DNA of 62,900 nt from a virus, in the IMG/VR virus record IMGVR_UViG_3300042987_001364, positions 1 through 62,900 of that record; one strand, written 5' to 3'. Numbering within the stretch: position 1 is the stretch's first letter; each line of letters opens with the position of its first letter. This document shows, piece after piece, positions 903-49,024 of the stretch. A model generated the notes under the pieces. The model saw only the letters and a program-made list of their open reading frames with translations. It was not told the DNA's origin and did no database searches. Both the position numbers and the translations under genes were made by a program.

Positions 903-1178
903 ATGGAAGAGATGACTGATCTGGAAGAAGTGTTGGCTGAGCGTGGCTCCAAGTACGGCGAGTTTTCAAAGAACTCTATGGTGAGCCAGTTGCTTAAATC
1001 AACTTTGTACAATGTTCCGCGAAATGCAGCGTTCTCCCACTATCAGCGGGAAGCGTTGGACATGATCGCCAATAAACTATCCAGGATTGTCTGCGGCGAC
1101 CCGAATTACGCCGACTCGTGGAGAGACATTGCTGGCTATGCCACGTTGGTGGCTGACATTCTTGAGTCTCGCAAATGA
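903..1178 (+). CDS. DUF6378-like phage protein
   Basis: A 91-residue protein with the pattern of a small family common in tailed phages: an N-terminal ERGSKYGEF motif, a central REALDMIANKLSRI helix, and a C-terminal GDPNYADSWRDIAGYA motif. Function is unknown. It overlaps the start of the large terminase subunit by 4 bases (ATGA), so the two are probably translationally coupled. An alternative start is ATG 912. Confidence 0.65.
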   Translation: MEEMTDLEEVLAERGSKYGEFSKNSMVSQLLKSTLYNVPRNAAFSHYQREALDMIANKLSRIVCGDPNYADSWRDIAGYATLVADILESRK

Positions 1179-3679
1179 GCGACTTGGCCGCGTTGATTTC
1201 TAAGCTGCCTGAGAATGAGCAACAGAAGTTGTTGGCTCAGGTAGGCGCATATAAAGAGGCGCTGGAGCGGGAGAAGGCGCAAGCGGACTTCATGGCGTTT
1301 GTGAAGATGATGTGGCCGTCGTTTATCCACGGTCGGCACCATGCTTTGATGGCGAAGAAGTTCGAGGAAATCGCGGCGGGGAAGGTGAAGAGACTCATCA
1401 TCAACATGGCCCCTCGGCACGCGATAAGGTTAGATATGAAGATACCAACATTGAACGGATGGAAAACGATGGCCGACTTATTGGTTGGCGATTATGTTTT
1501 CGGGCCTGATGGGATTCCAACAGAGGTAATTGGAAAATCAGAAGTGTTTCACGATAGAGACATTTATCGCGTGACTACGGATGATGGATTCAGCCTGGAT
1601 GTTGATGGCGAGCATCTTTGGACGGTTAGGTTGCACCGAAAGCACGATGTCTATCACGACTTCACGACTGAAGAGTTATGGCGTAGGCAGAACGGTGAAG
1701 TGCTGAGAATGGGTAGAGGTGGGAGCACACACTTCTTGGCGGGGCATGTCAAAAATCCACGATTGCCAAGATTGCCTGACGTGAATCCCGTCATTTACGA
1801 ACGGCAATCCTTGCCGATAGCACCCTATGTTCTTGGTGTATGGCTCGGTGATGGGCACAAGAATCAAGGGGTAATTACCTGTCACGATGACGATCAGGTT
1901 GGCATTCGGCAAATGTTCGAGGCGCTTGGGTACAGAACGACTGCCCAATCTACCCCGATGACGTTCGGAGTTTTGGGTCTAAAAGAAAAACTCCGCGATC
2001 TTGGTGTGTTAGGGAACAAACACATCCCGCAGGCGTATCTGATGGGTAGCGTAGATCAACGTAGATGGTTGCTCAAAGGTCTGATGGACACGGATGGCAA
2101 CGTGTCAAAAGCAGGTCAATGTTTCTTCGCGCAAAGCAACTTGAGTCTCATCAATCAAGTGCGCGAACTTCTAGCCAGCCTTGGGATTAAGAACTCATTG
2201 ATCTCTACCGAGGCAAAAATTGGAGACAAAAGCTACGGCAAGACATGGAGGATTAGCTTTTATGCTTCCAACATTGCTCATTTAGACAGGAAAGAAAATC
2301 GGACGATCAAGTACAAGCCAGCATTCGGAAGGTACATCAAAGTAGAAAAACTAAACGAAACTGGCAGTACGCAATGTATCAAGGTAGCTCGTCAAGACGG
2401 TTTGTTTTTGGCCGGAGAAGGCTACATTTGTACGCACAACACCAAATCCGAGTTTGGCTCGTTTCTTTTGCCGGCTTGGTTTTTAGGAAAGTACCCGGAG
2501 AAGAAAGTTATCCAATGTTCAAACACGGCGGAATTGGCTGTTGGCTTCGGACGGAAGGTTCGAAACCTGGTTGGGTCGGATCACTATAAGAAAGTGTTTC
2601 CGAGTGTTGATCTTCGGGCTGATAGCAAAGCGGCTGGACGCTGGGATACCTCGGGTGGGGGTAGCTATTTTGCTATCGGCGTTGGAGGTACGGTGACAGG
2701 TAAAGGTGCTGACCTTCTTATCATCGATGACCCGCACAGCGAGCAAGAGGCCAAGTTAGCCCAAGGCGACCCGACCGTATTTGACGGCGTGTATGAATGG
2801 TACACCTCCGGACCACGGCAACGTCTCCAGCCAGGGGCGGCCATTGTCGTAATTATGACTCGCTGGAGTGACAAGGACTTAACGGGCAAGATCATTAGGA
2901 ACTCACGACACGAGGACGAATGGGAAGTGATCGAGCTACCGGCCATCCTTCCATCGGGCGCACCTCTATGGCCTGAGTTCTGGAGTCTCGAAGAGCTTCT
3001 TGCTCTTAAAGAAGAGTTACCTTCCTACAAGTGGAACGCACAGTACCAGCAACAGCCGACTGGCGAAGCGGGTGCGATTATTAAGCGTGAGTGGTGGCGT
3101 ATATGGAATAAAGATCGTCCGCCTAATTGTGAATTCATTATCCAGTCTTGGGATACAGCCTTTACCAAAGGCGAGAGGTCGGACTATTCGGCCTGTACGA
3201 CTTGGGGTATTTTTAATCTTAACGAAGACCCCAATGATGTGAATATCATATTGCTGGATGCGTTTAAGGATAAATGGGAGTTCCCGGAATTAAAACAAGC
3301 AGCATTTAATTCGTGGAAAGAATGGGAGCCTGACGCATTTATTATTGAAGCGAAGGCAGCTGGGGCGCCGTTGATATTTGAGTTAAGGCGTATGGGTATT
3401 CCGGTTAGTGAATATACGCCATCGCGCGGTAATGACAAATTTGCGCGTCTCAATTCGGTTACAGATTTGTTTGCCTCGGGTAAAGTATGGGCACCGGACG
3501 CGAGGTGGGCTGATGAAGTAATTGAGGAAATGGCGAGATTTCCTAATGCGGAGCACGATGACTTATTGGATAGCTCGGTGCAGGCCCTCATCCGGTTTAG
3601 GCAGGGTGGATTTTTGCGGTTACAGACCGACGAGCCTGACGAGGAAATCGGATGGCGGCGAAAAAAGGCATATTATTGA
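1175..3679 (+). CDS. terL: Terminase large subunit with embedded intein
   Basis: The packaging motor ATPase and nuclease. The 834-residue precursor carries a 340-residue intein at residues 83-422; the spliced enzyme would be 494 residues, normal for the family. The P-loop is split: APRH before the intein joins TKSE after it. Walker B is LLIIDDP (about 514-520), and IMTRW with the following Asp is the coupling motif. The C-terminal RNase H-like nuclease shows acidic residues at D660 (SWDTAF), in IIEAKAAGAP, and D795/D796 (HDDLLDS). Because the intein interrupts the ATP-binding loop, packaging activity should depend on splicing. It follows the DUF6378-like gene with a 4-base overlap and precedes the portal gene. 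Confidence 0.95.
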   Translation: MSDLAALISKLPENEQQKLLAQVGAYKEALEREKAQADFMAFVKMMWPSFIHGRHHALMAKKFEEIAAGKVKRLIINMAPRHAIRLDMKIPTLNGWKTMADLLVGDYVFGPDGIPTEVIGKSEVFHDRDIYRVTTDDGFSLDVDGEHLWTVRLHRKHDVYHDFTTEELWRRQNGEVLRMGRGGSTHFLAGHVKNPRLPRLPDVNPVIYERQSLPIAPYVLGVWLGDGHKNQGVITCHDDDQVGIRQMFEALGYRTTAQSTPMTFGVLGLKEKLRDLGVLGNKHIPQAYLMGSVDQRRWLLKGLMDTDGNVSKAGQCFFAQSNLSLINQVRELLASLGIKNSLISTEAKIGDKSYGKTWRISFYASNIAHLDRKENRTIKYKPAFGRYIKVEKLNETGSTQCIKVARQDGLFLAGEGYICTHNTKSEFGSFLLPAWFLGKYPEKKVIQCSNTAELAVGFGRKVRNLVGSDHYKKVFPSVDLRADSKAAGRWDTSGGGSYFAIGVGGTVTGKGADLLIIDDPHSEQEAKLAQGDPTVFDGVYEWYTSGPRQRLQPGAAIVVIMTRWSDKDLTGKIIRNSRHEDEWEVIELPAILPSGAPLWPEFWSLEELLALKEELPSYKWNAQYQQQPTGEAGAIIKREWWRIWNKDRPPNCEFIIQSWDTAFTKGERSDYSACTTWGIFNLNEDPNDVNIILLDAFKDKWEFPELKQAAFNSWKEWEPDAFIIEAKAAGAPLIFELRRMGIPVSEYTPSRGNDKFARLNSVTDLFASGKVWAPDARWADEVIEEMARFPNAEHDDLLDSSVQALIRFRQGGFLRLQTDEPDEEIGWRRKKAYY
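1421..2440 (+). mobile_element. Class 3 intein with LAGLIDADG homing endonuclease
   Basis: In-frame protein intron, precursor residues A83 to N422, splicing to T423. It starts with Ala, not Cys or Ser. The block B region has H147 and W149, block F has C401 where most inteins have Asp (QCIKV), and the C-terminus is T420-H421-N422. Trp at B:12, Cys at F:4 and Thr at G:5 form the WCT triad of class 3 inteins, which splice through the block F cysteine. Two LAGLIDADG motifs, LGVWLGDG (D226) and LKGLMDTDG (D307), mark a homing endonuclease between the splicing blocks. The insertion lies exactly in the Walker A loop of terminase. The element looks intact. Confidence 0.93.
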
Positions 3680-41175: not shown

Positions 41176-41430
41176 GTCCAGAAGGCGCTCGATGGTGACG
41201 TTGAGCGCCGACAATTCATCCATCTTTTTAACTTTCCACATCCGGCGCTGCCCATGGAGTCCGTTTAGGCTACCTCGGTGGCAGTCGGCACATAAGGCGA
41301 CACAGGTGTATTGATCGCCTTGATTGATGTGGTGGGCCTCCGAAGGTGGATAGGCATCACATACAGAACAAGGGAGCGACTTGACTCTTGCCAAGTGCTC
41401 CCGTTGTTTATTGGTTAGCTGATTATTCAA
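41164..41430 (-). CDS. HNH nuclease-like protein (Ref/DUF968-like)
   Basis: An 88-residue protein with two Cys pairs and a His core: SLPCSVCDAYPPSEAHHINQ and VALCADCHRGSLNG, a zinc-supported HNH form like those of phage Ref-type recombination nucleases. It is the last gene of the minus-strand operon and overlaps the H-NS-like gene by 4 bases. It fits with the exonuclease and ERF annealing protein upstream in the same operon. Confidence 0.65.
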   Translation of the reverse strand: MNNQLTNKQREHLARVKSLPCSVCDAYPPSEAHHINQGDQYTCVALCADCHRGSLNGLHGQRRMWKVKKMDELSALNVTIERLLDSLL

Positions 41431-41726
41431 GCGACCAGCAGTTCAGCTTTATCCACACCTTCGTTCAGGCGGGCAGAGAACCACTGAGGGGCTTTGCCAC
41501 GGCCGGACCATGTTTTACCGCTTACGGGGTCCTTGTACTTGGCAGCAGCCTTCGCACGCTTATCCACAAGACCCAGCTTGAGACCGAGTTCGTTGGCACT
41601 GAAGTTCCACTCAGCGACAGCATCTTTGGTTTCGGCCAGAACGCGAGCACGTTCTTCGGCACGGAGTTGTTCCGCTTGACGCAGAAGTTCTTCAGCTTGA
41701 TTTTTCAGTTCTTGATAGTTAGACAT
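41427..41726 (-). CDS. H-NS-like nucleoid protein
   Basis: A 99-residue protein. Residues 1-45 form a helical oligomerisation region; residues 63-83 (KYKDPVSGKTWSGRGKAPQW) are the C-terminal DNA-binding domain of the H-NS/MvaT-like family, with the GRG minor-groove hook. It may bind A+T-rich DNA, either silencing phage genes or interfering with host H-NS. A likely promoter lies at 41759-41788. I use ATG 41726, directly behind GGAGAG; ATG 41738 is four codons upstream. Confidence 0.8.
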   Translation of the reverse strand: MSNYQELKNQAEELLRQAEQLRAEERARVLAETKDAVAEWNFSANELGLKLGLVDKRAKAAAKYKDPVSGKTWSGRGKAPQWFSARLNEGVDKAELLVA

Positions 41727-41758
41727 AGCACTCTCCATAGAGGGTTAAAGGGGAACGG

Positions 41759-44871: not shown

Positions 44872-45509
44872 TTGAAACTCTCTTTCATGGTTTTGAACAG
44901 GGCCATCACGTTCTCATACGTGTCGGCATCTTCAGCTTTGAGTTTGTCGTAGGTCTGACGATTGACCTTGAACACGCTCATCACATCATCGGGAGTCTTG
45001 CACAGATCAAGAGCCACTCCGGTTGCATCCACCACAGCCTGTGCCCAGTTAGACACCTTGGGCGGAATGTGGAGTGAACCGAAGGCGGGCTTGTCGGACT
45101 TAGGTTCCGGCTTAGGCTCGGGCCGAACTTCGGGTTTGCTATCACCTGCATCGATGGCATCGTGCTCAACGATTTCCAAGGCGGTCATCCACAGGTAACG
45201 GCGCTGGTAAGTCTGGACAGCACCAAGCTGTTGGATTGGGTGAGCGCCCTTCAGTTCAGCAGCGGCCATCGGAGAGGTGATGTTCAGCAAGCTGCCATCT
45301 TCCGTATCGACGATGCTAAGTTCGGCATAGTCGCGTCCGAAAGTGACAACACCACACAAGCCAAGGTCATAAAAGATCGACTGGATGTGGGGAAGGAAGT
45401 CACCCAGTTCAAAGTAGTGATAACCGCTGAACTTGTTATGGCCGCTTTTCTTCAGGTCACGCGACTGTAGCTTCACTCGCGCTTTCATCAGCTTCTTGTG
45501 CACTGACAT
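44868..45509 (-). CDS. ERF-family single-strand annealing protein
   Basis: A 213-residue recombinase. The core HPIQQLGAVQTYQRRYLWMT and LEIVEHDAIDA is the signature of the ERF family; the N-terminus (KKSGHNKFSGYHYFELGDFL) also fits. A Pro/Lys/Glu linker (about 124-140) separates it from a helical C-terminal domain. Together with the upstream exonuclease it would repair or join concatemeric phage DNA. Starts at 45509 inside the exonuclease gene; 45488 is possible. Confidence 0.88.
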   Translation of the reverse strand: MSVHKKLMKARVKLQSRDLKKSGHNKFSGYHYFELGDFLPHIQSIFYDLGLCGVVTFGRDYAELSIVDTEDGSLLNITSPMAAAELKGAHPIQQLGAVQTYQRRYLWMTALEIVEHDAIDAGDSKPEVRPEPKPEPKSDKPAFGSLHIPPKVSNWAQAVVDATGVALDLCKTPDDVMSVFKVNRQTYDKLKAEDADTYENVMALFKTMKESFK

Positions 45510-46380
45510 TCATTGATTCCTTGTAGAGTTGATACTGGTTACACCACGGAGAGACTGTGCAGAACTTCTCGCAACGGGTTCTCTCACCTGGACGCCTTTC
45601 AATAACATACGCCTCACCCATCTCCTGAACTTTGGCGTTGGCTTTATCTTCTTCAACAAACACAAAATTCGCACGCTTGTTGCCTTTCTTCTTGATGGCG
45701 AAAGTGGTCGGCTTCTCCCACATCTCTTCGCTCGAACACTCTGGGAGATCGCCCCCCACCTCCGACTGGAACATAGCTTCGGCGTGGAGATGGATACGCT
45801 TGCGGATGTACTCTTCACGAGCCTCAATCGGCCAGAGAGGGATAGGAACGACAACAATCGGGGCCGAAGGATAATCCTGTTTCTGTTCGGCGTCGCGCCG
45901 ATTCCAGTCACGGAGGATCGCCACGATCTGTAAAGACTTGATCGGACGATGTTTGATTGTCTCGATCAACCAAGCATAGACATTCAACTGGCGATGCCAG
46001 TCCAGCTTGTCGTTCATGACCGACCAAACAGAGGTTACCTTGTAATCACTGATGACGATGCCATCGTCAAAGAACTCTTGAAGATCAACGGCCCCACTCA
46101 ACGACCAGCCATCCACTTCAGCAAACAATCTTTCTTCAACAACGTGGTTGCGATCCTTGCCGTGTTCAAGGACGTTATGCAGCGCAGACCCAAACAAACT
46201 CCACACCATCTCACTGGCATCTTCTTCAATATCATTCCAGTGCTGGCGACGAAGCTGCACGATTCGCGGAGAAGATAATAATTCAGTGGCACTTACGTGA
46301 GCACCACCCTTGCTATACTGTGGGCGCCTCAAGACATTGATAATTGTCTCTGGCAAATTATGTCGGTTGGTGAGTTTCAT
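45457..46380 (-). CDS. RecB/Cas4-like exonuclease with Cys cluster
   Basis: A 307-residue PD-(D/E)XK enzyme: H68 in FGSALHNVLE, D99 in LSGAVDLQEF, then D112 and K114 in VISDYKVTSV; Q123-type helix afterwards. The C-terminus has RCEKFCTVSPWCNQY, cysteines that could hold an iron-sulfur cluster with one further ligand. It would resect DNA ends for ERF to anneal. Perfect AGGAGG ribosome binding site before ATG 46380; promoter at 46399-46427. First gene of the minus operon. Confidence 0.85.
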   Translation of the reverse strand: MKLTNRHNLPETIINVLRRPQYSKGGAHVSATELLSSPRIVQLRRQHWNDIEEDASEMVWSLFGSALHNVLEHGKDRNHVVEERLFAEVDGWSLSGAVDLQEFFDDGIVISDYKVTSVWSVMNDKLDWHRQLNVYAWLIETIKHRPIKSLQIVAILRDWNRRDAEQKQDYPSAPIVVVPIPLWPIEAREEYIRKRIHLHAEAMFQSEVGGDLPECSSEEMWEKPTTFAIKKKGNKRANFVFVEEDKANAKVQEMGEAYVIERRPGERTRCEKFCTVSPWCNQYQLYKESMNVSAQEADESASEATVA

Positions 46381-46398
46381 GTGTCCTCCTGAAACGTC

Positions 46399-46427
46399 AC
46401 TGTAAGGCAACAGTCAGCATCATGCAA
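46399..46427 (-). promoter_or_regulatory. Promoter of the minus-strand recombination operon
   Basis: On the minus strand TTGCAT (46427-46422), a 17-base spacer, and TACAGT (46404-46399). Transcription would start about 12 bases before the exonuclease ATG and run through about 18 overlapping genes to 41164. Confidence 0.55.
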
Positions 46428-46941: not shown

Positions 46942-47016
46942 GCTCCCTTCGTATAACGGTTATTACGGCTGATTTGTAATCAGCTTATCTGGGTTCGATT
47001 CCTAGAGGGAGCACCA
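46942..47016 (+). tRNA. tRNA-Thr (anticodon UGU)
   Basis: A 75-base tRNA. Acceptor GCTCCCT pairs with AGGGAGC; the anticodon arm is GCTGA-TTTGTAA-TCAGC with anticodon TGT; the T arm is CTGGG-TTCGATT-CCTAG; and the 3' ACCA is encoded. The D arm has one mismatch. It reads ACA threonine codons. Confidence 0.93.
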
Positions 47017-47397: not shown

Positions 47398-47424
47398 TAC
47401 GTGAGGTTAGGCAAGATTTCTCCT

Positions 47425-47574
47425 GTTGGGCGGCATCCCAACAATGTCTATAGGAACAATAACTTACCCCAGAATGTTCAAGTGGGGCATGTGTAATCAG
47501 TGGTGCGTTGTTCCTATCGCATTGTTGGTTGCCCATGCCAGGGCCATGCCCCACTTAAGCACTCTGGGGTTTTT
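47425..47574 (+). ncRNA. Structured RNA with two interleaved long helices
   Basis: Helix A: CCAACAATG (47438-47446) pairs with CATTGTTGG (47520-47528), and ATAGGAACAA (47450-47459) with TTGTTCCTAT (47508-47517). Helix B: CCCCAGA (47467-47473) with TCTGGGG (47563-47569), and AAGTGGGGCATG (47480-47491) with CATGCCCCACTT (47545-47556), then five T. The order A-B-A-B is that of a pseudoknot, or of alternative folds in which B is a terminator. A further hairpin, GTTGGG-CGGCAT-CCCAAC (47425-47442), competes with helix A. Chance pairing of this extent is very unlikely. Confidence 0.65.
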
Positions 47575-48003
47575 GCTTTTCTGGCTCGCTTCAACTCGGC
47601 TTCTGTTTAAGAGTCACTTAAGTCCCGATACCTCGGGTAGGAACTGAGTAACCGTAAAGCGTCATGGCGGCGGCGAAAGGGTAGTACCTTAGGACGGACG
47701 TATGGAAACGGTGGGCAGTAGCTTAAAGCTGGAACAATCGCACCAGACCAGCAAGAGCGGGATGCACTCAAAGTATCGAGTGGCGCAGTGCTCGGTGTGA
47801 GCCTCCTGATAGGCAAAAGACTGCGACTCAACACGGGTTAGGCCGGGGTTGAGCGATGGGGTGACTCAGCGGATACCTAATCTAGCATGAGCCATTGGAT
47901 ACATCCCGAGGGTTGCCTTCGTAGGCTGCCCTTGGGAAGGTTTTGCCCAGAGTTCCTATGCGTTTCCTATCCCGCATGCCACGTGATCCTGACGAGACTG
48001 AAT
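47575..48003 (+). other. Non-coding, structured stretch
   Basis: No gene seen. Several hairpins can form: CCCGA-TACC-TCGGG near 47634; CTCAAC with GTTGAG closing about 47827-47853; GCCT-CCTGAT-AGGC near 47800; and a 14-pair stem at 47905-47936 (CCCGAGGG with CCCTTGGG, loop TCGT). The content resembles a large folded RNA continuing from the interleaved-helix element, up to the ATG at 48004. Confidence 0.45.
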
Positions 48004-48426: not shown

Positions 48427-48663
48427 TAGACTTGTGGGTTAACGTACTACAATATGTCATGTTGTCGGACTCGAACCATGGCGAGGCGTGTGATCCACAG
48501 ATGACAACGGACACCCCGGAGAGACGGGGGCTAACAGGAAAGCAAGTCAGGAGTATCCTCAACTACAGGGGATAGAATTCGTGGCTTCTGGCTTGCTTCC
48601 TTGTTGGCGTTACGGGGCGGGGCGCTGTCATGGCGCGTTAAGAAAGTCCTATTTCGCCAACAT
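48427..48663 (+). other. Non-coding segment with strong stems
   Basis: No gene seen. AGGAAAGCAAGTCAG (48536-48550) pairs over 14 pairs with CTGGCTTGCTTCCT (48588-48601), one bulge and one G-U. TGTTGGCG (48602-48609) pairs with CGCCAACA (48655-48662), ending one base before the first tandem RNA copy. GTTGTC...GACAAC and CCCCG-GAGAGA-CGGGG lie upstream. Confidence 0.5.
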
Positions 48664-48786
48664 CCAACACGCATGAGTATTGGAGTCCGAGGGGGCGCGA
48701 ACCCTTGGTAAGCCAGTTAATAATTCCGACAGTCCTAGGAAACTTCGAATGAAACTGACCAGATAGCCAGTACTCAGCCGTGTTGG
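48664..48786 (+). ncRNA. Tandem structured RNA, copy 1
   Basis: Closed by CCAACACG (48664-48671) and CGTGTTGG (48779-48786). Inside: P2 GAGTA (48675-48679) with TACTC (48771-48775); P3 GAGGG (48689-48693) with CCCTT (48702-48706) around GGCGCGAA; a long arm CAGTT (48714-48718) with AACTG (48753-48757) stacked on ATTC-GA (48723-48729, one bulge) with TCGAAT (48745-48750). Copy 2 at 48895 keeps these helices with different bases. No known RNA family recognised. Confidence 0.8.
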
Positions 48787-48897
48787 TGTAGCTCAACTGA
48801 AAGCTGGCATATATTGAAACCAGCTAGTCGGCAGACGAAAGATAGAGCGGCCTCGGCAGGGGACGGTTGCGGGTTTGAATCCCGTCATCAACAACCA
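48781..48897 (+). ncRNA. tRNA-like structure with 50-base D loop
   Basis: Acceptor TGTTGGTG (48781-48788) pairs with CATCAACA (48886-48893), 8 pairs, followed by A and encoded CCA (48895-48897). D stem GCTC (48791-48794) with GAGC (48845-48848). T arm GCGGG-TTTGAAT-CCCGT (48869-48885); the usual C of TTC is T. The D loop is 50 bases and holds the hairpin AGCTGG/CCAGCT (48802-48825). Only 20 bases remain for anticodon arm and variable region, with no 7-base anticodon loop, so it is not a normal tRNA. Its ends overlap both tandem RNA copies. Confidence 0.55.
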
Positions 48898-49024
48898 ACA
48901 CGCATGGCGATTGGACTCTAAGATAGCGCGAAATCTTGGTAAGCCCATCAATAGTCCGAAGTCCTGGCGCTAGAGGTATTCTTCGGATGCGGTGAGCCAG
49001 ATAGCCAGTCGCCAGCCGTGTTGG
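48895..49024 (+). ncRNA. Tandem structured RNA, copy 2
   Basis: Closed by CCAACACG (48895-48902) and CGTGTTGG (49017-49024). P2 GGCGA (48906-48910) with TCGCC (49009-49013); P3 AAGAT (48920-48924) with ATCTT (48933-48937) around AGCGCGAA; arm CATC (48946-48949) with GGTG (48991-48994) stacked on GTCCGAAG (48954-48961) with CTTCGGAT (48981-48988). Compared with copy 1, P2 changes by three and P3 by two double compensatory substitutions, while GCGCGAA, TTGGTAAGCC and CCAGATAGCCAG are kept. Confidence 0.8.

Follow-up and report, generated by a model that had tools for sequence, protein, structure and literature searches.

A modular array of structured RNAs in an environmental phage, with the same layout in P1 and lambdoid phages

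Two tandem RNAs in a noncoding island

The stretch of DNA analysed here, referred to as the window, is an entire IMG/VR virus record, 62,900 bases long. The portal protein that it encodes shares 33-45% identity with portal proteins of aquatic Pelagibacter, cyanobacterial, Roseobacter and Caulobacter phages. A noncoding island in the window contains a tRNA-Thr (UGU) at 46942-47016 on the plus strand, called by ARAGORN and matched in Rfam with 60.2 bits, and a row of at least five modules at 48531-49024, also on the plus strand and not adjacent to the terminase gene. The row consists of modules at 48531-48607 and 48603-48661, a first RNA copy (48664-48786), a tRNA-like segment (48782-48893) and a second RNA copy (48895-49024). 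The first two were assigned by eye. Searching the island against Rfam at E<=10 gave nothing credible except the tRNA, and promoter and terminator scans of the island were uninformative.

The two copies, which we denote A modules, share one architecture. Each is closed by a stem P1 (CCAACACG/CGTGTTGG) at 48664-48671/48779-48786 in copy 1 and 48895-48902/49017-49024 in copy 2. Inside P1 lies an internal loop of CAU opposite AGC (48672-48674 and 48776-48778 in copy 1; 48903-48905 and 49014-49016 in copy 2), followed by a 9-bp stem P2, which is GAGUAUUGG/CCAGUACUC at 48675-48683/48767-48775 in copy 1 and GGCGAUUGG/CCAGUCGCC at 48906-48914/49005-49013 in copy 2. P2 of copy 1 encloses an insert made up of P3, P4 and P5, and the insert of copy 2 belongs to the same family; in both copies P3 has 7 bp and P4 has 7 columns. 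The unpaired motifs found in both are the loop GCGCGAA, TTGGTAAGCC and CCAGATAGCCAG. The copies fold alike and are more stable than expected (minimum free energy z of -4.13 for copy 1 and -4.64 for copy 2), with none of 200 shuffles equally stable. Neither strand has an ORF of 60 aa or longer that overlaps the pair, and the Rfam 15 covariance models had no match at either copy at the gathering threshold or at E<=10.

Over P2, P3 and P4 the two copies differ by 8 double compensatory changes; a further 3 pairs change on one side only, and at 2 columns one of the copies is unpaired. An earlier note on this DNA had described the pair as paralogous RNAs of no known family that are selected for base pairing. 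All of its coordinates and motifs were confirmed by inspection of the sequence, the Rfam searches agree with it on the family, and selection for pairing is borne out by compensatory changes in 8 independent homologues. The check that it proposed, for homologous pairs that vary without covarying, found pairing kept by compensatory change in these eight. Compensation itself held, and its extent had been understated: P2 had been given as 5 bp and the double compensatory changes as five.

The same note saw the two copies and overlooked the rest of a row of at least five modules, including the spacer between the copies. This spacer (48782-48893) holds a tRNA-like module of a second type, which we denote B. 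It has an acceptor stem GUUGGUG/CAUCAAC, the 5' strand of which overlaps the 3' strand of P1 of copy 1, together with a T arm and a long insertion, and it is without a proper anticodon arm. It matches the Rfam tRNA model weakly (31.2 bits) through the acceptor and T arm, with a 46-nt insertion. ARAGORN called no tRNA in it, and as it has no cloverleaf with a 7-nt anticodon loop it was rejected as a true tRNA and is only tRNA-like. Folded alone, it is weak (z -1.1). A relative of the same type, with 81% identity, occurs in environmental locus L123. No recognisable B module was found after copy 2.

Upstream of copy 1, the module at 48531-48607 is an A-type hairpin on a different frame (CUAACAGGAAAGCAAG...CUUGCUUCCUUGUUGG; z -5.35 over 48526-48607), and its status as a module was judged by eye from its likeness to hairpins of phages ST4 and P1. 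Between it and copy 1 lies a B-type segment (48603-48661), read from the sequence, with the closing stem GUUGGCG/CGCCAAC; its stretch GGGGCGCTGT(C/G)ATGGCGCG is also present in a B insert of L231. A small hairpin, (A)CACCCCGGAGAGACGGGG, stands just before the row at 48511-48529 on the plus strand, and the same motif is found upstream of modules in L068, L196, L450 and others.

Further structures were noted in the same island. The region 47400-47580 forms a very long, near-perfect nested hairpin of about -72 kcal/mol with a T run at its end, and the 380-nt noncoding region 47590-47970 has strong predicted structure and no Rfam match. At 48461-48508, GTTGTCGGACTCGAACC...GATGACAAC reads on the minus strand as a tRNA lacking the D arm but having a T arm, and was called by neither ARAGORN nor Rfam.

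A constant frame and interchangeable inserts

We retrieved 80 loci that encode a relative of the window's exonuclease (45457-46410, minus strand) and searched them with the two copies using nhmmer. Weak matches were found in some of these exonuclease loci, in the same place and on the expected strand, and in L066 and L065 they were tandem. The interiors of these matches were unrelated to those of the window, while the outer part was nearly letter-identical, giving the shared frame ACGCAU-NNNN-AUUG ... CAGU-NNNN-AG(C/U)-CGUGUUGG. The A frame comprises P1, the internal loop CAU/AGY, and a P2 ending in AUUG/CAGU with a U-G wobble, and both window copies conform to it.

Hundreds of IMG/VR contigs contain this frame. 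Three pattern scans, for inserts of 4-34, 35-65 and 66-96 nt, each returned at least about 120 stretches, where we estimate about one or fewer by chance. These patterns prescribed no letters for the P2 N4 columns or for most of the 5' strand of P1. AUUG/CAGU was itself part of the search pattern, so the fact that it does not vary among these matches is no independent evidence. In 350 of the 360 unique unfiltered matches listed, all four free P2 pairs were formed. Of the N4 cells, 99.2% were paired, as compared with 86.2% after column shuffling, and G-C, A-U, C-G, U-A and G-U were all used. G-U (about 83 cells) was far more frequent than A-C (about 8), and therefore selection acts on the plus-strand RNA. 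P1 pairs 5 to 8 were 88-98% paired, though the 3' strand is nearly invariant, and P1 pair 4 was G opposite G in 105 cases. Selection on the frame thus operates at the RNA level, and we regard it as close to certain that the constant frame is RNA.

Other searches delimited the distribution. A tandem motif pattern derived from the two copies had no matches in viral contigs, since what is conserved lies outside the insert. A 17-base loop pattern gave 41 scattered matches in bacterial genomes, about as many as expected by chance, and a rescan of these found no convincing second motif. In a gammaproteobacterial class sample of 369 genomes, one frame pattern (inserts of 5-35 nt) had no match. Rfam returned only tRNAs on 13 further array loci.

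The inserts are diverse. Among the matches listed there were 343 distinct inserts of 4-110 nt, which fell into 161 clusters by shared 6-mers, or into 165 (E<=0.001) or 135 (E<=0.1) by nhmmer, with 35-37 clusters having at least three members. RNAalifold consensus structures showed double-sided changes in 12 of the 13 largest insert families, a count that rests on predicted structures and is biased towards pairing. In other phages the same frame holds many different inserts, of which the interior that the earlier note had taken as conserved is only one. Its family has 8 further phage members, of which the one in L403 retains the GCGCGAA loop (nhmmer E 2.3e-18). Ten sequences of this family, aligned by hand, are paired in 222 of 230 cells, and 12 of the 23 pairs have changed on both sides. 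All three helices individually beat the best of 2000 column shuffles, a comparison among related sequences and so not a formal significance test. Some A inserts of L352 and of L118, where Rfam called no C4, carry ..CCGTCTGATCAACGAGAG-AGGGTTCAACTCCCTC.. and resemble phage C4 antisense RNA.

B modules, exchange of units and known phages

Downstream of A modules, the strand CGUGUUGGUG runs into a second structure, a GUUGGUG/CACCAAC stem followed by AAC. The B module thus has the form GUUGGUG...CACCAAC-AAC, with its 5' strand overlapping the 3' strand of P1 of the preceding A, as is seen after copy 1. Detecting B by stem pairing alone had a high background (300 of 411, against 148 of 411 random windows, at >=7 pairs) and was rejected; B stem counts, family counts and clusters built on pairing alone were set aside in favour of the anchor CAACA[AG]C. 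Of 364 A modules, 192 have this anchor at a distance of 45-200 nt downstream, compared with 40 of 860 control windows, so that an anchored B accompanies only about half of the A modules. Pair 7 of the B stem forms in 88%, against 64% expected from the columns. P1 of A and the closing stem of B use the same GUUGG, so the two may compete or fold in turn.

Families of A and of B are freely combined. In the 192 anchored A-B pairs, the 16 members of one A family are joined to 13 different B families, and the 10 members of one B family to 9 different A families; L176 and L253 have the same B with unrelated A inserts. The arrays are modular in organisation, a conclusion that we hold with high confidence.

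We compared two representative module sets with 50,697 phage records by blastn and found matches in phage P1, Klebsiella phage Madison, Pseudomonas phage PS-1 and Aeromonas phage ST4. At that sensitivity the CGCAU frame was not seen in cultured phages, which matched only through a widespread B family and short insert stretches. In all four phages the B module is built on AAUGCGCAGGCUGAUGCGC...GCCGGAGAUCAGCACCGGC, and each is preceded by an A-type hairpin of another frame. This B family, absent from Rfam, occurs in L483, L484, L485, L486, L488, L583 and a large number of environmental loci. The two hairpin loops of the module are able to pair with each other (GCUGAU/AUCAGC). The first loop-loop pair in 20 cases was G-C in 12, G-U in 4 and A-U in 4, and never A-C, an apparent covarying kissing-loop pair. 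The A-type frame of P1, IME207 and Madison is CACAACA-GGUAAGRGY-AUU...AGU-RCYCUU(A/U)CC-GUUGUG. The CAAC/GUUG closing and the AUU/AGU at the inner end of P2 recur between this frame and that of the window, and from the layout and the AUU/AGU core we infer that the two may be of common descent.

Whole units are gained or lost. The P1 array comes after tRNA-Asn and tRNA-Thr, and the P1 isolate OP279344 (L483:554-830) has exactly 196 nt that are missing from the reference NC_005856 (L491). These 196 nt are one B plus one A, bounded by a 17-nt repeat, CTTACCGTTGTGATGAA, which is the strand shared by A and B. In the reference P1 the array overlaps the annotated opposite-strand ORFs plp/upl.

The same layout occurs in the late leader of the lambdoid phage HK633, where PR'/qut and the holin gene flank an A-B unit; in IME10 a B-module match lies between Q and holin. 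For the widespread B family, megablast with the P1 query gave matches in 1057 of 5426 complete E. coli genomes, with no annotation among the matches listed. CPS-53 of K-12 is without the widespread B module that other strains have upstream of yfdP.

In the environmental phages, 93 of 285 loci have a gene for the small or large terminase subunit downstream, on the same strand and no more than about 3 kb away, and 75 have genes for recombination or replication upstream. The next ORF, by mechanical calls, is on the same strand for 229 of the 336 elements with both neighbours, at a median distance of 144 nt. For 35 of 411 elements there is a tRNA no more than 300 nt away, a frequency several times the expectation from the tRNA density of the loci.

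Possible action of the arrays and alternative explanations

The best explanation, which we favour tentatively, is a phage-borne modular RNA array, in which noncoding RNA modules in late leaders carry inserts that act in trans. The arrays would be transcribed as leaders of late or tRNA-island transcripts. Late-leader transcription is likely, because the arrays head late operons and adjoin tRNAs, and for HK633 the annotated PR' promoter indicates that the array is transcribed as a late leader. The shared GUUGG strand would make folding of A and B sequential or mutually exclusive and, together with the tRNA-like B modules, may let tRNA-processing enzymes free single modules; the tRNA-like B modules suggest release of the RNase P type. 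The inserts could then serve as trans-acting domains that bind host factors, with their diversity perhaps reflecting an arms race as with anti-defence proteins. We favour trans action, with some hesitation, because the inserts, and not the frame, are diverse and structured. Taken more broadly, and more speculatively, freshwater phages, P1 and lambdoids might share a combinatorial RNA system, with few frames, a large library of exchangeable inserts and alternating arrays heading late transcripts, as an RNA counterpart of anti-defence or host-takeover islands.

The main alternative, which we consider rather less probable, is a cis-acting leader. The A frame and the B stem would together form a two-hairpin element of the nascent RNA, acting in put-like antitermination or in protecting the 5' end of late mRNA, with the inserts tolerated or tuning. 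The put RNA of HK022 is about 70 nt, consists of two neighbouring stem-loops with conserved bulges in a nascent phage leader RNA and brings about read-through without a protein (PMC9378689). The leader position in HK633 and IME10 and the same-strand ORF downstream of 229 of 336 elements are consistent with such a role, and the short median gap of 144 nt to the next gene suits a cis-acting leader equally well. However, the inserts have structure of their own, are conserved inside each family and recur in different phages, unlike filler, and HK633 already has Q and qut annotated. Compared at the level of published architecture, put differs from the arrays in belonging to early operons, in occurring in few phages and in having no exchangeable inserts.

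It is improbable that the modules are tRNA-like decoys that bait host or defence RNases attacking tRNAs. The B module of the window scores as a tRNA, tRNA genes are enriched near the elements, and some B modules are tRNA genes or near-tRNAs (L294, L136); however, most A and B inserts are not tRNA-like, and a T-loop-like motif was found in just 19 of 300 B candidates.

Still less probable is a site acting at the DNA level, either a folded single-stranded recombination site like the attC of integrons or a packaging site with a variable terminal structure. The likeness to attC lies in short paired arms, an internal loop, variable terminal structure and mobile tandem units, and arrays do occur near terminase genes. 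However, attC sites are DNA, whereas the excess of G-U over A-C means that pairing in the arrays is kept on one strand only, and the insert families have conserved loops and compensatory changes. The core, GTTGGTG in most when read from the sequence, does not fit the R' core GTTRRRY with a matching R'', and the virus record, which may be incomplete, has no match to the tyrosine recombinase domain PF00589 of an integron integrase. Unit loss in P1 is explained by the 17-nt repeat. A packaging RNA of the phi29 type had no match in the Rfam scans, and terminase proximity alone is not evidence for one. Lastly, chance resemblance or a recent duplication without constraint, conceivable for two copies in one genome that may share ancestry, is ruled out by the 8 double compensatory changes between them, the 8 homologues elsewhere, and frame matches in the hundreds.

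Among known RNAs, GOLLD and ROOL are large structured noncoding RNAs of phages and prophages, often near tRNA islands; GOLLD is induced during lysis, and their function is unknown (PMC12286853). Unlike the arrays, they are single large RNAs with one conserved fold each, forming nanocages, and have no frame with exchangeable inserts; neither model matched at the window copies or the island. STnc100 and Proteo-phage-1 occupy the same kind of phage noncoding region and lie near the B module, in Madison and PS-1 respectively. They are distinct models, and neither matches the window or the A and B modules. The ToxI RNAs of type III toxin-antitoxin systems, found in phages and plasmids, are likewise tandem structured RNA units, in the form of near-identical short pseudoknot repeats before a toxin gene, whereas each array unit carries its own insert. 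The open-access literature yielded no published description of the A/B arrays, and by that search the frame-and-insert organisation is, provisionally, undescribed.

If the arrays act as proposed, phages would use RNA in the way that they use small anti-defence proteins, with a common scaffold, swappable parts and fast turnover. The insert clusters, numbering over a hundred in this sample alone, are a natural stock of RNA domains for which no partner is known. The layout is present in the late leaders of lambdoids and in P1, and one B family in roughly one in five complete E. coli genomes, apparently unannotated. This makes an old blind spot, the noncoding gaps of late leaders and those next to phage tRNAs, testable in standard laboratory strains.

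Elsewhere in the window, the gene for the terminase large subunit (1175-3679) is split by a LAGLIDADG-containing insert, probably an intein, with Pfam and PHROG matches on either side. A phage protein with an H-NS C-terminal DNA-binding domain is encoded at 41427-41738 on the minus strand.
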